Positions 18,509-58,118 of a stretch of 64,000 nucleotides of DNA are shown here, one piece after another. The notes beneath the pieces were generated by a model. That model did no database searches and was not told where the DNA came from. It saw only the letters and a list, made by a program, of their open reading frames with translations. Position 1 is the stretch's first letter; every line of letters starts with the position of its first letter. The stretch is from Salinigranum rubrum (GTDB lineage: Archaea; Halobacteriota; Halobacteria; Halobacteriales; Haloferacaceae): positions 3,348,001 through 3,412,000 of the forward strand of contig NZ_CP026309.1 of the NCBI RefSeq assembly GCF_002906575.1. Direction: 5' to 3'. The position numbers and the translations under genes were made by a program.

Positions 18509-18784
18509 ACCGGTAGAAGAGCTAGCGACTACTTGAATCGTACGACTCGCTCGCTACGATGGAGAGGCGTGCGAACAGGAGTCAGGTCGGTGGCGTCTGT
18601 GGGTCTGTACGTAGTGGGCGAGTAGAGGGGAGAGAAGGGCGTTCGTGAACGTGTCTGAGAGAGCGGAGAACTCGCAGTACACGGGCACAGCGAGGCCACA
18701 GCCTCCCCAACCGATTCCGTCGCTCGCTCACTCAGTCATCCACCGAAGCGACTCCGTCGCTTCAAGCCTTCACTCGCTACGCTC

Positions 18785-19094
18785 GTGAAGACCTCGCGCG
18801 TGAGTCGCGCGGCGAAACCGCGTGACGTCACGCGCCACCGCCTCGTCCTGTTGCGGTCGGCGCGCGGGAGCAGCGCGGGACGCGGAGCGTCCCGCTGGCC
18901 ATGGGGGCGACTCATGGGTCGCCCGCAGACGAGTGAACGAAGGGAACGAGTGGCGCGCGAGGTCTTCGTGAATGAGCGGAGCGAATGAACGAACGGCTCG
19001 GAACAACGGAGTTGCTCCGGTGGGACTGCTCGGGGCCCCGTCCGCGAGCGACCCGGTTGGGGAGGCACGAGGCAGCGGTCCACCGCGCCCGTGT
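18785..19094 (+). repeat. Intergenic repeat element, copy A
   Basis: It shares ordered blocks with the element at 55202-55393. GTGAAGACCTCGCGCG (18785-18800) and GCGGTCGGCGCGCG (18853-18866) start 68 bp apart in both copies. A closing block of about 50 bp (19044-19094) contains TGGGGAGG...CCACCGCGCCCGTGT. Copy A carries about 117 bp more than copy B, mostly hairpins. No ORF or transposase is visible. Confidence 0.7.
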
Positions 19095-19102
19095 GTCGTG
19101 CG

Positions 19103-19159
19103 TACTCGTTCCTGACCTGTGTACTCGTTCCTGACCTGTGTGCTCGTTCCTGAACTCGA
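19103..19159. repeat. 19-bp tandem direct repeat, three units
   Basis: TACTCGTTCCTGACCTGTG occurs at 19103-19121 and 19122-19140 without a mismatch, then a third degenerate unit at 19141-19159. It starts 9 bp after repeat copy A. There are no unique spacers, so it is not a CRISPR array. Confidence 0.85.
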
Positions 19160-44508: not shown

Positions 44509-47313
44509 TTAGTCGCGGCGGACTGCGAGCAGTGCCGCGGCGATGAGCGCGATGAGCGCGACGATGACACCGAAGCCGGGCGTCGACGTTTCCGTCGCCG
44601 GCTCCTCGGTCGCCGGCTCCTCGGTCGCCGGCTCCTCAGTCGCCGTGGGCTCCTCGGTCGCGGTCGGCTCGTCAGTCGGCTCCTCGGTCGGCTCTTCGGT
44701 CGGCGTCGGCTCCTCGGTCGGCGTGCTCACCGACTCGACGAGCTCGAACTCGAGCGAGGCCGAAGCCTCGTCGTCGTCAGCACGCAGCGTGTACGTGCCC
44801 GTCTCGACGTCCGACATGTCGATCGTGGTCGACCATTCGCCGGTCGAACCGTTGACCTCAGCCTCGTCCGAGGCGATCACGTTCTCGTTCTGGCCGAGGA
44901 CCTCGACGAAGACGGTCGTGCCGTCCTCGCGGTTCGAGGTACCCGAGACGGTGACCTCACCCTGGGCAACCTGCCCGTTCGTGGTGAAGTCGTCGATCGA
45001 GAGCTGCGGGTTCTCCGCGGAGATCGTCAGCTCGACGATCTGGTCGTCAACGCCAGCACCCGTGTACTCGTCGTTGACGATCGCGACTGCCTGCTGCGGC
45101 GTGAGGTCCGACTGCAGGGCGTCGCCACCGAAGCCGTAGTCAGACGCGTAGTCACCGTCGCGGCCCTGGCCGACGACGATGAACGTGTACTGACCGCGGT
45201 TGCTGAACGCGTCGTAGTCCTCTTCGAACTCTTCCTCGTCGATGTCGATCTCCTCAGCGTCCTGGGAGTTGCCGGCAGCGTCGAGGAAGTTCCCGCGCGG
45301 ACCGATCAGGTAGACGCGGACCGAGTCACCCTGGCCGAGCGCGGTGCCCGACAGCGTGACCTCGTCACCGACGTTCGCGGCGATCGTGTTCGAGGAGACC
45401 TGCGCCGTGAGGTCGCCCTCGACGGTGCGGATCGTGACGGTCTCCTTCGTGTCGAACTCGCTGTAGGTGTCCGTGTCTATCTCGTCGCCCTGGTTACCGG
45501 CGGCCAGGTAGTCCGTGCCGTCGTCGTCGACGGGGTCGGCGACGACCGCGATGCGGTACGAGTCGGGCAGGCTGATGTTGCTACCCGAGTCGATGTCGAG
45601 CGAGAACTCGCCGTTCGAGTCGACGTCGTCCTCGGAGAAGTCGCCGTCCTCGTCAACGAGCGGGACGTAGTTCTGGTCGATGCGCGCGTACGCCTTGACC
45701 GTGTCCGACTCGGGAGCAGTTCCCTCGACGGTGAACTCCTCACCGATGCGGACGACGCTCGGGGCGGACGAGATGTTGATCGACCGCTCCTGGACCGTCA
45801 GCTCCGCGGAGTCGTCAGCGCTCGCGTTGAACGCTGTCTGGAGCGTGCCGGTGTTGGTGTCCGCGCTGTCCATCTCGACGAACTCGACGTCGAGCGTCGT
45901 CGTGTCGAGGTCGGACGTCAGGATACGGACCTGCGCTTCACCCTCGTCGTCCATGTCGACGACAACGCCGACGTAGTCCTCGTCCTGGTCGCCAGCGAGG
46001 TCGTCAGTGCCGAAGCGGCCCTGGACGTCGCCGGTGTTGGCGAAGACCTGGCTCGCGTTCGCGTTGCCAGCCTCGAGGTCGTCGGTGTCACCCTGCTCGA
46101 TGCGGAGGAGACCGTACGTTCCGGGCGTGCCGGTGACCGTGGCGACGACGTTGTCGCCCTGCGTGGCGGTCGATTCGCTCAGCGAGATGCTCTGCGATTC
46201 GTCGCGGATGGTGAACGTCGCGCTGCGCGACGCGCTGTCGAGGTCGTCCTCACCCTCGACCGTGACGGTGTACTCGCCCGTGTCGAGATCATCGACGTCC
46301 GAGAGTTCGACGTTGCCACCGGACTCACCGATCTCGAGGAGACCGGTGTTCGAGGTGAGCTGCGACTGGACCTCGAGGCCGTCCTCGTCCTCGATGGTGA
46401 TCGAGACGTTCTCGGCCTCGTCGAAGTTCCAGTCGGCCTCGACGGTGATGGTGTCCGTGTCGGTGACGATCGAACCGTCCGTGACGTCCGCGCCACCCGT
46501 ACCGGCGCCGGAGTAGATCGTCAGGTCAGTGACCTGCGGCTCGACGACGAAGAAGTCGGCGCGGCCGTCGGAGTTACCCGAGACGTTGTAGCCGCCGGTC
46601 TCGAAGTTGTTCGCGGCCGTGATGTCGGCGAAGGCACCGTCGTTGACGGATGCCGTCGAACCGTCGGCGTCGCCGCTGACGCCCGTGAAGGTAGACGAGC
46701 TACCGGCGGAGACGCCCGAGAAAGACGTCAGGTCGACGTCTTCCTCACCGAGGTAGACCGTACCACCAGAGGAGATGGAACGCTCGGTAGTGAGCGTGAG
46801 CGTCTCGAACTGCACGCCGTCACTCTCGAGAGTGCCGTCGTTGTTATTGTCGACATCGGCCCTTACGGCGAAGCTTCCCGTCGCGTCGGGCGCGCCGACG
46901 TCAGCGTCGAAGCTAACACGAACTGCCTCGGAGCCAGCACCACCATTGTCGTTGATGGTGAGGTTGATGTAATCCTGCGCGTCGTTCACCGAAACATCAC
47001 TGTTGGTGAACGTGGCAGAAGCACCGTTATCAACACTCGCACCCGTAACACCGGGAGACGAGAGGTCGACGCCGCTGGGCATCGAGATGTTGACGACCGC
47101 AGGAGTGGTGTCACTCGTGTCTGCGTTGACTTCTACTGTAAATGTGTGTGTATTCGTCGTTCCACCTTCAACAGTAGCCGGTGAGATGCTACTGTTAGCA
47201 GGAACGAGAGTAGCACTTGCTGTACCCGCGAACGCGACGGTCCCCGCGAAGACGGAGAGGACCATCAGCGCTGCGAGTACAACAGCGCGGACTTTGTTAT
47301 TGTTGTCTGTCAT
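44509..47313 (-). CDS. csg: S-layer glycoprotein with PGF-CTERM anchor
   Basis: 934 residues from ATG 47313. A signal peptide (cleavage probably after GTASA) is followed by an acidic, Thr-rich beta protein with many N-x-S/T sequons for N-glycosylation. The C-terminal region has tandem EEPTATEEPA-type repeats, then TSTPGFG, a hydrophobic helix and RRD. This is the tripartite PGF-CTERM signal that archaeosortase A processes and lipidates in haloarchaea. The protein forms the cell's outer lattice. Length and repeats match known haloarchaeal surface glycoproteins. An in-frame GTG (47355) lies in the leader. Confidence 0.95.
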   Translation of the reverse strand: MTDNNNKVRAVVLAALMVLSVFAGTVAFAGTASATLVPANSSISPATVEGGTTNTHTFTVEVNADTSDTTPAVVNISMPSGVDLSSPGVTGASVDNGASATFTNSDVSVNDAQDYINLTINDNGGAGSEAVRVSFDADVGAPDATGSFAVRADVDNNNDGTLESDGVQFETLTLTTERSISSGGTVYLGEEDVDLTSFSGVSAGSSSTFTGVSGDADGSTASVNDGAFADITAANNFETGGYNVSGNSDGRADFFVVEPQVTDLTIYSGAGTGGADVTDGSIVTDTDTITVEADWNFDEAENVSITIEDEDGLEVQSQLTSNTGLLEIGESGGNVELSDVDDLDTGEYTVTVEGEDDLDSASRSATFTIRDESQSISLSESTATQGDNVVATVTGTPGTYGLLRIEQGDTDDLEAGNANASQVFANTGDVQGRFGTDDLAGDQDEDYVGVVVDMDDEGEAQVRILTSDLDTTTLDVEFVEMDSADTNTGTLQTAFNASADDSAELTVQERSINISSAPSVVRIGEEFTVEGTAPESDTVKAYARIDQNYVPLVDEDGDFSEDDVDSNGEFSLDIDSGSNISLPDSYRIAVVADPVDDDGTDYLAAGNQGDEIDTDTYSEFDTKETVTIRTVEGDLTAQVSSNTIAANVGDEVTLSGTALGQGDSVRVYLIGPRGNFLDAAGNSQDAEEIDIDEEEFEEDYDAFSNRGQYTFIVVGQGRDGDYASDYGFGGDALQSDLTPQQAVAIVNDEYTGAGVDDQIVELTISAENPQLSIDDFTTNGQVAQGEVTVSGTSNREDGTTVFVEVLGQNENVIASDEAEVNGSTGEWSTTIDMSDVETGTYTLRADDDEASASLEFELVESVSTPTEEPTPTEEPTEEPTDEPTATEEPTATEEPATEEPATEEPATETSTPGFGVIVALIALIAAALLAVRRD
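44593..44728. repeat. Tandem codon repeats encoding the Thr/Pro/Glu-rich stalk of the S-layer protein
   Basis: Imperfect 15-18-bp units built on CTCCTCGGTCGCCGG encode the (E)EPATEEPTATEE-type stalk before the PGF tail. Such stalks are O-glycosylated in other haloarchaea. The array may differ in length between strains. Confidence 0.75.
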
Positions 47314-50687: not shown

Positions 50688-50761
50688 TGGGCCAACGCGG
50701 ATTTGAACCGCGGACCTCCCGGTTATCAGCCGAGCGCTCAACCTGACTGAGCTATTGGCCC
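50688..50761 (-). tRNA. tRNA-Ile (GAT anticodon)
   Basis: A complete 74-nt cloverleaf. The acceptor stem GGGCCAA pairs with TTGGCCC, the anticodon stem CTCGG/CCGGG holds the loop CTGATAA with anticodon GAT, and the T-loop is GGTTCAAATCC. The discriminator base is A and CCA is not encoded. No intron. Confidence 0.96.
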
Positions 50762-54983: not shown

Positions 54984-55201
54984 ACTGCGCGGAACCCTCG
55001 TCGCGGTGAGAGCCCCATGAAACCCTCGCACGGTAGCAGGAGTGGTCGCCGAACGTAGCCGAGGTATCGAAACGGGCACGGGAGGAGGAGATGCTGATAG
55101 ACGAGACTTGAGACAACGGGCGCGGGGGAGCCACACCACCGGAGCGACTTCGTCGCCGCTGTGCGCCGGCTCCCAGCGGAACCGCCGGTTCCGCCCGGCT
55201 T

Positions 55202-55393
55202 GTGAAGACCTCGCGCGTTTTGGTCGCGGGCGGAGCCACAGCCGTCACGCGACACCGCCCCACGTCGTGGCGGTCGGCGCGCGACGAGCGAGCGAACGGA
55301 TGTGAGTGAGTGAGCGCGCGAGGGCCTGCTCGCGCCTCCGGGCGCGAGCGACCGGGTGGGGAGGTCCGAGGCTGCGGTTCACCGCGCCCGTGT
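55202..55393 (+). repeat. Intergenic repeat element, copy B
   Basis: Ordered blocks shared with 18785-19094: GTGAAGACCTCGCGCG (55202-55217), GCGGTCGGCGCGCG (55270-55283, also 68 bp after the first), and a 50-bp closing block (55344-55393) with GGTGGGGAGG and CCGCGCCCGTGT. It is shorter than copy A because most of the hairpin-rich middle is absent. Confidence 0.7.
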
Positions 55394-55417
55394 ACGACCG
55401 GTCGTCTCGCATCTCAC

Positions 55418-55475
55418 CACATCTGCACCGACGAATTCCCACTCGTCACATCTGCACCGACAAATCCCCACTCGC
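55418..55475. repeat. 29-bp tandem direct repeat, two units
   Basis: CACATCTGCACCGACGAATT-type units at 55418-55446 and 55447-55475, with only a few mismatches. It starts 24 bp after repeat copy B, an arrangement like the tandem repeat after copy A. Confidence 0.85.
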
Positions 55476-55634
55476 CGCTCAGTCCATCGATTAAACTACT
55501 TGCTACCGCGGCCCGTCACGGCAGCCTCACTCGTGACCGAGTCGTGCTCTGCTCACCGACGCTCTCCGCGAAACGCCCGGGAGAGCGGGCAAAAGCGAAG
55601 GAGCGGCGGAGCGACGAATCGACGTGTCTCGACG

Positions 55635-56351
55635 TCAGCCACCGAGGAGCGTCGCCTCCACCTTGTGGAGGTGTTCGTGTAGCGTCGACGCCGTGATGCC
55701 GAGTTCGGCTGCTAGCTCCTCCGCGGAGATCCGTCGGGGGACCGCGTAGTACCCGTTCTGACGAGCGAGTCGGAACACCTCGTGTTGCCGTCGGGTGAGT
55801 CGGTGGAGCGGCAGTCCTCCCAGTCCCGTCCCCCACGACGCCTCCCCGAACCCGAGTACGGTGATCTCGGCGCCGACGTTCGCACAGATCTCGTCGAGAA
55901 GCGGCTGGACCTCCGACCGGCCGTGATTGGTGAGGAGGGTCCAGTACTCGAACCCGTTGTTCCCGTCGACGGGTTCGGCGTGCACGAAGCCTCGGGAGGT
56001 GAACTCGTCGCTGATTTGCGTCGTCCCGTCGTGGTCGACGAGGAGACCTCTCGTCGCGTTTCCAGGGACCGCTCCCGACTCTCGACGGGGTGTCTGGTTC
56101 ACCTCCGAGACGATGTACACCTGTGGATGGTCGCGGATCGCCGCGACTGCGGCCGAGAGCTGTTGCTCGGTGTTCGCGTAGATCGTATAGAGCGTCGTCG
56201 TCCGACCGTCCGGTCGGGTGCGCGTGCCGTACCCGATCAGTCCGAAATCGAGTCGGCCCGTCAGTTCGATGACCCAGCAGTCCGGATGCCACACCCGTAG
56301 CGAGAGGCGAAGCGCCCGGTCGAGACCCTGGAGTGGCTCCTGATTCGACAT
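55635..56351 (-). CDS. Bat-like HTH transcriptional regulator
   Basis: 238 residues. The C-terminal HTH_10 domain has LHRLTRRQHEVFRLARQNGY, RRISAEELAAELGI and STLHEHLHKVEATLL, typical of the haloarchaeal Bat/bacterio-opsin-activator family. The N-terminal 160 residues are a sensory region I cannot assign. It lies 24 bp after ogt on the same strand, which suggests an ogt-HTH operon. Confidence 0.85.
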   Translation of the reverse strand: MSNQEPLQGLDRALRLSLRVWHPDCWVIELTGRLDFGLIGYGTRTRPDGRTTTLYTIYANTEQQLSAAVAAIRDHPQVYIVSEVNQTPRRESGAVPGNATRGLLVDHDGTTQISDEFTSRGFVHAEPVDGNNGFEYWTLLTNHGRSEVQPLLDEICANVGAEITVLGFGEASWGTGLGGLPLHRLTRRQHEVFRLARQNGYYAVPRRISAEELAAELGITASTLHEHLHKVEATLLGG

Positions 56352-56375
56352 GTTGTGGCGGTGGTCAGTGACGAC

Positions 56376-56762
56376 TCATTCGACGACGTGTGCTCGTTCG
56401 AGCTCCAACAGCCGTTCTTGGAGACCGGGATACATATACCCGCGCAGGGAGTCCGAGCCGACAACCCGGTGACAGGGGACGACGAGAGGGAGCGGGTTCC
56501 GCGCACACGCCTGTCCGACGGCGATCGGAGCCGTTCCCACCCGCTCGGCGACCTGCCCGTAGGTGCGAGTCTCGCCGTACGGAATCGCCTGGAGAGCCGT
56601 GTGTACCTCCCCGGTGAAACCGTCGGGGAGTGTGATCTCCAGATCGAACCGACGTCGGTCCCCACGCTCGTACGCTGCGAGTTGCTCCCGAACGGTCGAC
56701 TGCGACTCGGCGATCCGCGTCTCCGCCAGTTCGACTTCGTAGCCGAAGATGTGGTACGTCAT
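56376..56762 (-). CDS. ogt: Methylated-DNA--protein-cysteine methyltransferase (Ogt/MGMT)
   Basis: 128 residues from ATG 56762. The active-site motif is PLVVPCHRVVG (Cys97), and the HTH part reads TALQAIPYGETRTYGQVAERVG. It removes alkyl groups from O6-guanine. It is a short form that lacks the usual longer N-terminal domain. The frame stays open upstream, but the sequence is not coding-like. Confidence 0.88.
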   Translation of the reverse strand: MTYHIFGYEVELAETRIAESQSTVREQLAAYERGDRRRFDLEITLPDGFTGEVHTALQAIPYGETRTYGQVAERVGTAPIAVGQACARNPLPLVVPCHRVVGSDSLRGYMYPGLQERLLELERAHVVE

Positions 56763-56944
56763 CGTGTGTTCGTCTTGTTCGTCTCTCCCGTGGATAGTGT
56801 ATCCAGAGCCGTCTATATCAGGCTCTCCGCGGACGAGGGTGAAACGTCCGGCCGTCCGTCCGACGGGTCGGAACCGTCGGACCGAGTTATCGGTCCGGAG
56901 CGCAGCGCCGGCGACACCGTTTGGTTCGTTCCGAGTGGCACCGG

Positions 56945-57091
56945 TCACGCTGTACGGCGGGTGAGAACCCCGCCACATCGTCCGCAGACGTACATCGAGG
57001 TCCGTCCCATCTGACCGAGGTACGAGAGGTCGTCGTGGACACACTCGACCTCACCACCGATCCGGTAGCCGCGGTTTGATCCTCCCGACAT
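56945..57091 (-). CDS. 48-residue zinc-ribbon-like protein
   Basis: MSGGSNRGYRIGGEVECVHD begins the protein; the ECVH and YVCGRCGG pairs (CxH...CxxC) form a four-ligand zinc ribbon. A GGTTATAGC box lies about 45 bp before the ATG. Small zinc proteins of this size are common in haloarchaea. No function can be assigned. Confidence 0.65.
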   Translation of the reverse strand: MSGGSNRGYRIGGEVECVHDDLSYLGQMGRTSMYVCGRCGGVLTRRTA

Positions 57092-57191
57092 CGACTGACT
57101 CGATGGGGGACGGAGTCGTAACGTAACACCCTGCTATAACCGGCCGAGAAGTCCCACAGACCCGACCGGATAGAACCGAACCGGACTCGGG

Positions 57192-58118
57192 TTACGCGTC
57201 GAGTTCCTCACGCAGTTGCGCCATCGTCAACTCGCGCTCGGCGTGGGCGTTGTGCTGGTGGATGGACTCGTCGTTCGACTGCTTCATGTGGACCACCGCG
57301 TCGTCCGGGAGGTGGTCGAACATCTCGACCGTCTGCTCGGCCAGCGACCGGACGCAGTCCTCGACGAACTTCGCGTTCGCGTGGGCGTGGTAGGTCATGT
57401 GGTCCTCGTCGGGACGCTTCGCGAGGTTGTAGATGCGCGCGCTCATCGAGTCCCGCGCGATGTCGACGATGTCGATGAGGTCGACGTCGGGCGACCCGTC
57501 GCTCGTCACGGTGAGCGTGGCGTGCCCGCGCTGTGAGTGACCGGGCTGAGGGACCGCGTCGAGGAACTCCTCGGTCGTCTCCTCGTCGACGCCGAGGTCG
57601 AGCAGAGTGTCGCGGGCGCGGGAGGCGGACATCCCCTGTGAGCAGGGACAGACCGTCATCCCCACGACCCGGGCACCGATCTCCTCGCGGGTCCCCTCCT
57701 CGGTCGCGGTGGCCGAGGCGATGATGTCGACGCTCGACTGCGTCGCGAGGCCGCTCTCGGGCGTGTCCTCCTTGAGGATGAGTTCGGCCTCCATGTGGAC
57801 CTCCGCGGTGGAGGTGTAGTCGTGCTTCGCGAGGAGGCGTTCGGCGGCGTCGCCGCAGACGTCCTCGACCCGGTAGGCGGGCTCGGAGACGGCCTCTTCG
57901 AGGACTTCGTCGATGACCTGCATGTTCCGGCTCATGTCGATGCCCTTCCGCCCGCTCGGGAGGTCGACGAACACCTCGAACTCCGCCATCAGGACGAGCG
58001 GCCGCTTCCCGTTGCGGGCGATCTTCACGAGTTTCTCGACGCCGGTCACACCGACCTGACTCAACCCCACGGTGACGTCGGGCCGCGTCGCCTGCACGTC
58101 GGGCAGCTGGTGACTCAT
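57192..58118 (-). CDS. mptA: GTP cyclohydrolase MptA
   Basis: 308 residues. MptA converts GTP to 7,8-dihydroneopterin 2',3'-cyclic phosphate, the first step in methanopterin-type and tetrahydrofolate pterin synthesis in archaea. Conserved segments are [11 protein letters not shown] near the start and [15 protein letters not shown], whose cysteines suggest the metal site. CATAATC lies about 27 bp upstream of the ATG. The start [13 protein letters not shown] gives a full-length enzyme. Confidence 0.92.

Follow-up and report, generated by a model that had tools for sequence, protein, structure and literature searches.

Two repeat copies, A and B, in the window (the whole stretch of DNA analysed, 64,000 nucleotides of Salinigranum rubrum) are members of a large family of intergenic repeats that are mosaic-palindromic and carry inverted ends. 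Short tandem arrays are associated with these ends, begin at them and are more frequent where the end is well conserved, and the flanking DNA, read outward from the element, is rich in A+C, an unexpected feature of the family. The best explanation, to which we give about an even chance, is that the palindromic ends interrupt DNA synthesis or break repair, which would lead to both the arrays and the strand asymmetry.

Copies A and B in the Window

The window corresponds to G000:C1:3348001-3412000, where C1 is a 4.25-Mb contig of the 4.97-Mb, six-contig genome and was taken as the chromosome on its size. A preliminary description had observed that copy B repeats the layout of copy A, in which a closing block is followed by a short tandem repeat, and this observation was confirmed. 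Alignment of A with B gave two blocks (84% identity over 73 columns and 79% over 90 columns). An exact match to CCGCGCCCGTGT, described as shared at the end of the block, was found twice in the window, at 19083-19094 and at 55382-55393, and Tandem Repeats Finder recovered 19-bp units after A and 29-bp units after B, as had been claimed. The array was said to lie 9-24 bp beyond the block; this holds for B (24 bp), while in A the two are separated by 7 bp rather than 9. Copy B, previously placed from 55202, begins about 88 bp further left, at about 55114, with a degenerate inverted end identified by eye. The features of both copies were as follows:

18673..19102, plus strand: copy A, mosaic palindromic element of about 430 bp, similar to at least 4 other loci (L089 1893-2322)
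18677..18715, minus strand: left inverted end of copy A, degenerate, reverse complement of the family end (by eye)
19022..19094, plus strand: closing (right) block of copy A, 84% identity to 55322-55393
19102..19153, plus strand: 19-bp x 2.7 array abutting the right end of copy A (Tandem Repeats Finder, 96% matches, score 97)
54984..55113: left flank of B, from the TrmB-type gene to the element
55114..55410, plus strand: copy B, mosaic palindromic element of about 295 bp, with 55148-55410 similar to at least 4 other loci (L090)
55114-55140: left inverted end of copy B, degenerate (by eye)
55318..55406, plus strand: right-end module of copy B, match to covariance model R1 (G000:C1:3403318-3403406, 92.8 bits, E 3.1e-21); the match is not independent, as copy B is one of the 23 rows used to build R1
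55328..55349, plus strand: internal hairpin of copy B, stem covarying between copies
55381..55406, plus strand: terminal quasi-palindrome of copy B, outer arm altered relative to the family consensus ACCGCGCCCGTGTNYCGYGCGGTC
55411..55634: right flank of B, from the element to the HTH_10 gene
55418..55474, plus strand: 29-bp x 2.0 array beyond the right end of copy B (Tandem Repeats Finder, 92% matches, score 100)

In the window, Tandem Repeats Finder returned 33 rows, some overlapping, and four separate arrays, including those of A and B, reached a score of at least 90. The top-scoring array of the window was located at 44594-44724 (15/18-bp units, score 114). Folded as single-strand DNA, copy A (18676-19106) had a z of -7.87, with 0/100 shuffles equally stable; the fold of copy B was unremarkable (z -1.33, 18/200 shuffles equally stable). 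The nearest named relatives of the gene to the left of B were in Halorubrum and Halobellus, with 56-57% protein identity (six named loci).

Size, Distribution, and Genomic Setting of the Family

A DNA search with B gave at least 43 matches, all on C1 (the best 40 of 206 candidates were scored), and the 42 non-self matches had 74-96% identity, mostly 74-87%, over the matched parts. Exact ACCGCGCCCGTG occurred 64 times genome-wide, 64/64 on C1, and a reversed control pattern once; two of the 64 occurrences look like chance. If the occurrences were placed by length, the chance of finding none in the remaining 14.5% of the genome would be about 4e-5. The covariance model of the right end detected at least 129 ends in this genome (150 of 7367 candidates scored), all of those among the matches listed being on C1. 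It detected 11, 12, and 16 ends in the congeners G001, G002, and G003, respectively, and gave no match in six genomes from five other genera. A pattern search with 2 mismatches allowed gave 59 occurrences here, 1, 1, and 4 in the congeners, and 1 in the other 75 genomes. The end model, R1, and the pattern were all made from the copies of this genome, and the congener counts therefore lean low.

Cores, defined by similarity to at least four other loci, were found in 72 of the 76 loci fetched. By this rule L035, L082, L098, and L104 had no core and were dropped from the counts; L035 lies inside a gene and, like L082, has the look of a chance match, and L098 and L104 were used as lone ends instead. 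A second set of 26 new loci, one of them without a core, provided 25 further copies, mostly with weaker ends.

Any overlap of the 72 cores with predicted genes was 30 bp or less, the gene calls being those of a codon-usage script, not an annotation. The cores lay between divergent (29), convergent (16), and tandem (27) genes, and the corresponding numbers for 107 element-free intergenic regions were 30, 16, and 61, so that elements were scarcer between tandem genes.

Structure of the Element

Read outward, the ends have the form TCACCGCGCCCGTGT-N-YCG-Y-GCGGTC, a quasi-palindrome that extends past the block described earlier. That block was thought to end at CCGTGT; in the family it continues to ...YCGYGCGGTC, and this tail is altered in A and B. 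There are two end types, with a TGGGGAGG block common to both. The interior of the element is a mosaic of short palindromes, and the core length is mostly about 100-430 bp. Among 88 HMM-anchored ends, 20 two-ended elements with terminal inverted repeats were found, and 17 full elements displayed such repeats in their sequence. An alternative end of approximately CACCGCCCTGGCGACCGCGCGG, also quasi-palindromic, was recognized by eye at L118 and L121 (G002), L119 (G003), and L093 (this genome).

The right-end hairpin covaries between copies, with 96.1% of cells paired and 37 double-changed cells, compared with 8.4 in shuffles and at most 10 with a slid partner. Stem covariation can arise from hairpin-templated mutation. 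The result shows that the palindrome is maintained, either by selection or by mutation of this kind, and does not imply an RNA function. In the window, the only Rfam match reaching the gathering score was a tRNA at 50688-50761; the element had no match, which rules out a structured RNA of a known family. Two pairings were rejected by folding energy: the two flanks as halves of a larger hairpin (own -63.0 vs. swapped -64.8 kcal/mol, n = 46), and each flank with the ends of its element (-52.7 for own and for swapped pairs alike, n = 90).

Tandem Arrays at the Element Ends

When only bases outside the end were counted, arrays were present at 22/86 ends and in 5/107 element-free intergenic pieces (P 4e-5). 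In this evened test, the scan ran to the gene or for 150 bases, with one piece per control region; at score 20 it gave 7 arrays at ends and 2 in controls. A wider scan gave arrays at 24/89 ends and 23/69 loci vs. 12/214 control anchors (P 8e-7), and was less even, as ends were scanned over 210 bases (60 inside the element), controls over no more than 150, with short control regions scanned from each side. With a self-shift score of at least 12, arrays were detected in 22/131 flanks (those under 60 or of 600 bases and more were excluded from flank counts) vs. 8/192 element-free pieces, the figure for dinucleotide-shuffled flanks being 0.2%.

The 25 further copies of this genome showed no enrichment (4/44 flanks vs. 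2/45 control pieces); 21 congener copies had arrays in 7/39 flanks vs. 0/14 controls. Recognisable ends with an array numbered 2/20 in the further copies and 1/7 in the congeners. When all flanks of this genome were pooled, the counts were 26/175 vs. 10/237 (P 3e-4), and P was 8e-4 after removal of A and B.

The position of the arrays was not random. All 24 arrays of the wider scan began from -33 to +37 bp of the end, with a mean start of 11 bp from the end (starts inside counted as 0) vs. 42 expected at random. Without A and B, the mean was 11.5 vs. 41.5 expected, and 0/50,000 simulations were as low. Array periods were 10-44 bp, and 17-37 in 21/24. Arrays also became more frequent with end conservation, at 1/22, 7/38, 6/24, and 11/25 from the lowest to the highest class (109 recognisable ends, P 0.002), a trend that may account for the lack of enrichment in the 25 further copies with their mostly weaker ends. 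The identity of array units was unrelated to end conservation (rho 0.14, P 0.5, n = 25), which fits continuing array formation. Hairpin strength alone was rejected as the driver of arrays, since ends with and without arrays were not separated by the energy predicted, with RNA parameters, for folding of their last 34 nt (P 0.40).

At six sites shared between species, no array common to the species was seen by eye, with flanks that align poorly and one genome per species. The G003 match of L046 has an adjoining 25-bp array that is missing here and in G002. The array of copy A was not seen at the orthologous G003 site, which keeps the lone end motif only.

The preliminary description had offered two readings of the layout, a shared slippage-prone end or target-site expansion, and this interpretation was partly supported. 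A slippage-prone end, though not a universal one, is supported by the enrichment of arrays at ends, by where they start, and by their greater frequency at conserved ends. Copies lacking a tandem repeat, which the preliminary description had named as a refutation, do exist and are in the majority, as 46/69 loci had no array at a recognisable end, and the further copies were unenriched; the association itself is nevertheless real. Expansion of a target site was not supported, with no target duplication found in the 20 two-ended copies and with 22/23 array-bearing loci having an array at one recognisable end only, though many loci possess no more than one such end.

Strand Asymmetry of the Flanks

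Read outward from the element, A+C exceeded G+T in 121/131 flanks vs. 67/138 control halves. The outward GC skew of the first 140 bp ranged from -0.25 to -0.30 beside gene starts and from -0.10 to -0.27 beside gene ends, compared with -0.04 and +0.06, respectively, in control halves. The A+C excess was also found in the further copies (41/44 flanks vs. 14/30 controls, P 2e-5), and in congeners the counts were 31/39 flanks vs. 4/8 controls (P 0.18). On the inward-pointing strand, C was depleted, and T was above A beyond 40 bp.

At L040, L048, L049, L078, L086, L098, and L104, a 24-bp end motif stands alone, most of the element being absent. The outward A+C excess was present on 14/14 sides of these seven, a group chosen by eye in which five loci had also contributed to the first flank set. 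It was likewise seen at the lone end in G003. L035 and L082, the two chance matches, did not have it on both sides.

In neighbour genes, the skew at third codon positions was shifted the same way in five of the six bins that cover the first 360 bp (values of -0.055 to -0.155, with a bootstrap sd of 0.03-0.05); the sixth bin was +0.011, and beyond 360 bp the values were +0.016 and -0.037. An earlier, coarser analysis had the skew in genes seemingly limited to the first 75 bp. The skew reaching into genes is weak, and is of the kind that a spreading mutation process would leave.

Congener Sites and Transposases

Across one syntenic stretch of G003, 7/7 orthologous sites lack the full element; the flanks diverge there, and no clean empty junction is seen. 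All or part of the element was present between the same genes in a congener at six sites (L046, L050, L081, L084, L182, and L186). Copy B lies in a 2.2-kb segment (54984-57196) together with the HTH_10 gene and an O6-methylguanine-transferase-type gene; this segment is absent in three congeners, where 13, 14, and 85 bp separate the matches to the flanking genes. One orthologous site carries the element here in the orientation opposite to that in two congeners (L046 1996-2306, L150 1300-1594, L151 1492-1765), representing an inversion or an independent insertion, with end types judged by eye.

The elements are inferred to have once been mobile. Target-site duplication was rejected, as the longest common substring of the flanks had a mean of 5.8 for own and 6.0 for swapped flanks (n = 20). 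No parent transposase was found when PF01609 and PF01797 matches were checked against element ends or motif location. DDE transposases (PF01609) gave eight matches, 8/8 on C3 and C4, and the repeat-family matches listed were all on C1. The lone IS200-type transposase (PF01797, on C1) was rejected as mobiliser, having no related ends within 5.6 kb. Six IS605 OrfB genes (PF01385) were present in the genome. A composite unit, with two close elements flanking a transposase, was also rejected, the genes in the L062/L063 and L044/L045 intervals looking ordinary by eye (e.g., NifU-like, thioredoxin, and RibD-like). A predicted protein with the DSPYQSA motif x5 was noted on the minus strand at L063 3543-3933.

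Proposed Mechanism and Alternative Explanations

Slipped re-annealing after synthesis is halted at the palindrome, or repair of breaks arising there, is the simplest account of arrays that begin at the end, favour intact ends, and change from one species to another. In this account, copies A and B are two old members of a genus-limited, transposase-free palindromic family that has dispersed among the intergenic regions of a single chromosome. The conserved quasi-palindromic end motif would repeatedly interrupt DNA synthesis or break repair running inward, and restart by slipped annealing would duplicate the stretch beside the end, giving arrays of 10-44 bp units that start from the end. The inward-pointing strand, if recurrently single-stranded, would slowly lose C and leave the outward strand A+C-rich; the C depletion and the T above A on that strand fit deamination of C on an exposed strand. 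Stalling or breakage is what we infer as the cause of both signatures.

Slippage, the route proposed here to repeats beside a hairpin, has been described biochemically. In vitro, both PolB and PolD of archaea undergo it when the template contains a hairpin and direct repeats (PMC4134008). The repeats there were pre-set, and neither haloarchaea nor an element of this family was involved (PMC4134008, available text). According to the same text, the P. abyssi clamp PCNA lowers slippage (PMC4134008), which counts against the mechanism. So do the majority of copies without an array, the unenriched further copies, the hairpin energy that does not predict arrays, and the spread of skew into genes, which is small and uneven between distance bins.

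A more specific form of the idea is put forward tentatively, as possible but short of probable. The palindrome may be a persistent hot spot of broken or stalled synthesis that leaves a symmetric scar to its left and right, the outward strand turning A+C-rich throughout the intergenic flank and weakly so in the adjoining genes, and duplications growing from the edge. If so, the chromosome, with about a hundred scars, would hold a nucleotide-level record of the strand exposed during replication or repair of a palindrome in an archaeon. From the edge duplications and the mirror-symmetric bias between strands it could be learned how hairpins are handled by archaeal replication or repair in living cells, and the bias, if it stems from exposed single strands, could provide a sequence-only test of break resection against fork stalling. 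The arrays might also serve as naturally variable typing loci.

Alternatively, the arrays and A+C-rich arms could have been made at insertion, when a mobilising enzyme or its repair would leave new DNA, produced by slippage, at each end, and have eroded later, the element being larger than the core. We consider this rather unlikely. It would agree with the greater frequency of arrays at well-conserved, presumably younger, ends, and with the unaligned stretch minus core, which here exceeds the whole unaligned stretch of G003 by 100-161 bp at L087, L088, L091, L092, and L093 (5/7 sites). The excess at A is 16 bp relative to G003, and B is not comparable. However, G003 may have lost DNA instead, and no target duplication was found. 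Erosion from a single event also agrees poorly with unit identity that does not follow end conservation and with the weak skew that continues into genes, and the different arrays of different species at shared sites (by eye) point to change after insertion.

It is improbable, in our judgement, that the asymmetric flanks and the hairpin are selected as a regulatory or insulating unit (e.g., a two-way barrier to transcription or replication) with the arrays as tolerated spacers. Covarying stems, cores kept clear of predicted genes (0/72 with an overlap above 30 bp), and an asymmetry found beside gene starts and gene ends alike would suit such a unit, but the covariation could also come from hairpin-templated mutation. 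The scarcity between tandem genes (27/72 vs. 61/107) would suit it as well, but is also expected if insertions between co-transcribed genes are removed. A terminator should be marked by a convergent excess, which was not found in the raw counts (16/72 vs. 16/107), and the full element was missing from all seven sites of the G003 stretch, though six other sites are shared with congeners.

Coincidence, in which long haloarchaeal intergenic regions hold arrays anyway and those beside A and B are unremarkable, is very improbable: arrays do occur without elements (8/192 pieces, 9/107 whole intergenic regions) and the 25-copy set is unenriched, but the enrichment of pooled flanks with or without A and B, the evened control, and array starts at the element end all contradict it.

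Comparison with Known Repeat Elements

The element was judged to be an SMR/MITE-like repeat. Like MITEs, the family is non-autonomous, multicopy, and intergenic, and has terminal inverted repeats; unlike with MITEs, no target duplication was found, nor a parent transposon among the PF01609 and PF01797 matches.

With respect to the available text of PMC3119063, the family fits neither the SMRs nor the PATEs of Haloquadratum walsbyi cleanly, since SMRs are short and near-identical and PATEs lack inverted ends. SMRs are transposase-free and are said there to move by an enigmatic mechanism (PMC3119063). Like the family, SMR-A/B are haloarchaeal, short, and non-coding, with terminal inverted repeats and no target duplication, and they are missing from a large plasmid. 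They have no matching transposon, and for the family none was found among the PF01609 and PF01797 matches. They differ in length (SMR-A about 110 bp and one SMR-B 80 bp, against family cores of mostly 100-430 bp), in identity (SMR copies commonly above 95%, against 74-96% for matches to B), and in location, SMR-A inserting into other elements and family copies lying between ordinary genes (PMC3119063). Edge arrays and strand asymmetry are unmentioned for SMRs and PATEs in the available text of PMC3119063, and a literature search by title, which covered few subscription journals, gave no report of either.

PATEs have no terminal inverted repeats and have IS605-type-like ends, whereas the family has inverted ends. 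In other respects PATEs resemble the family, with near-terminal palindromes, divergent copies, variable sequence past the palindrome, and terminal-only remnants (PMC3119063, available text).
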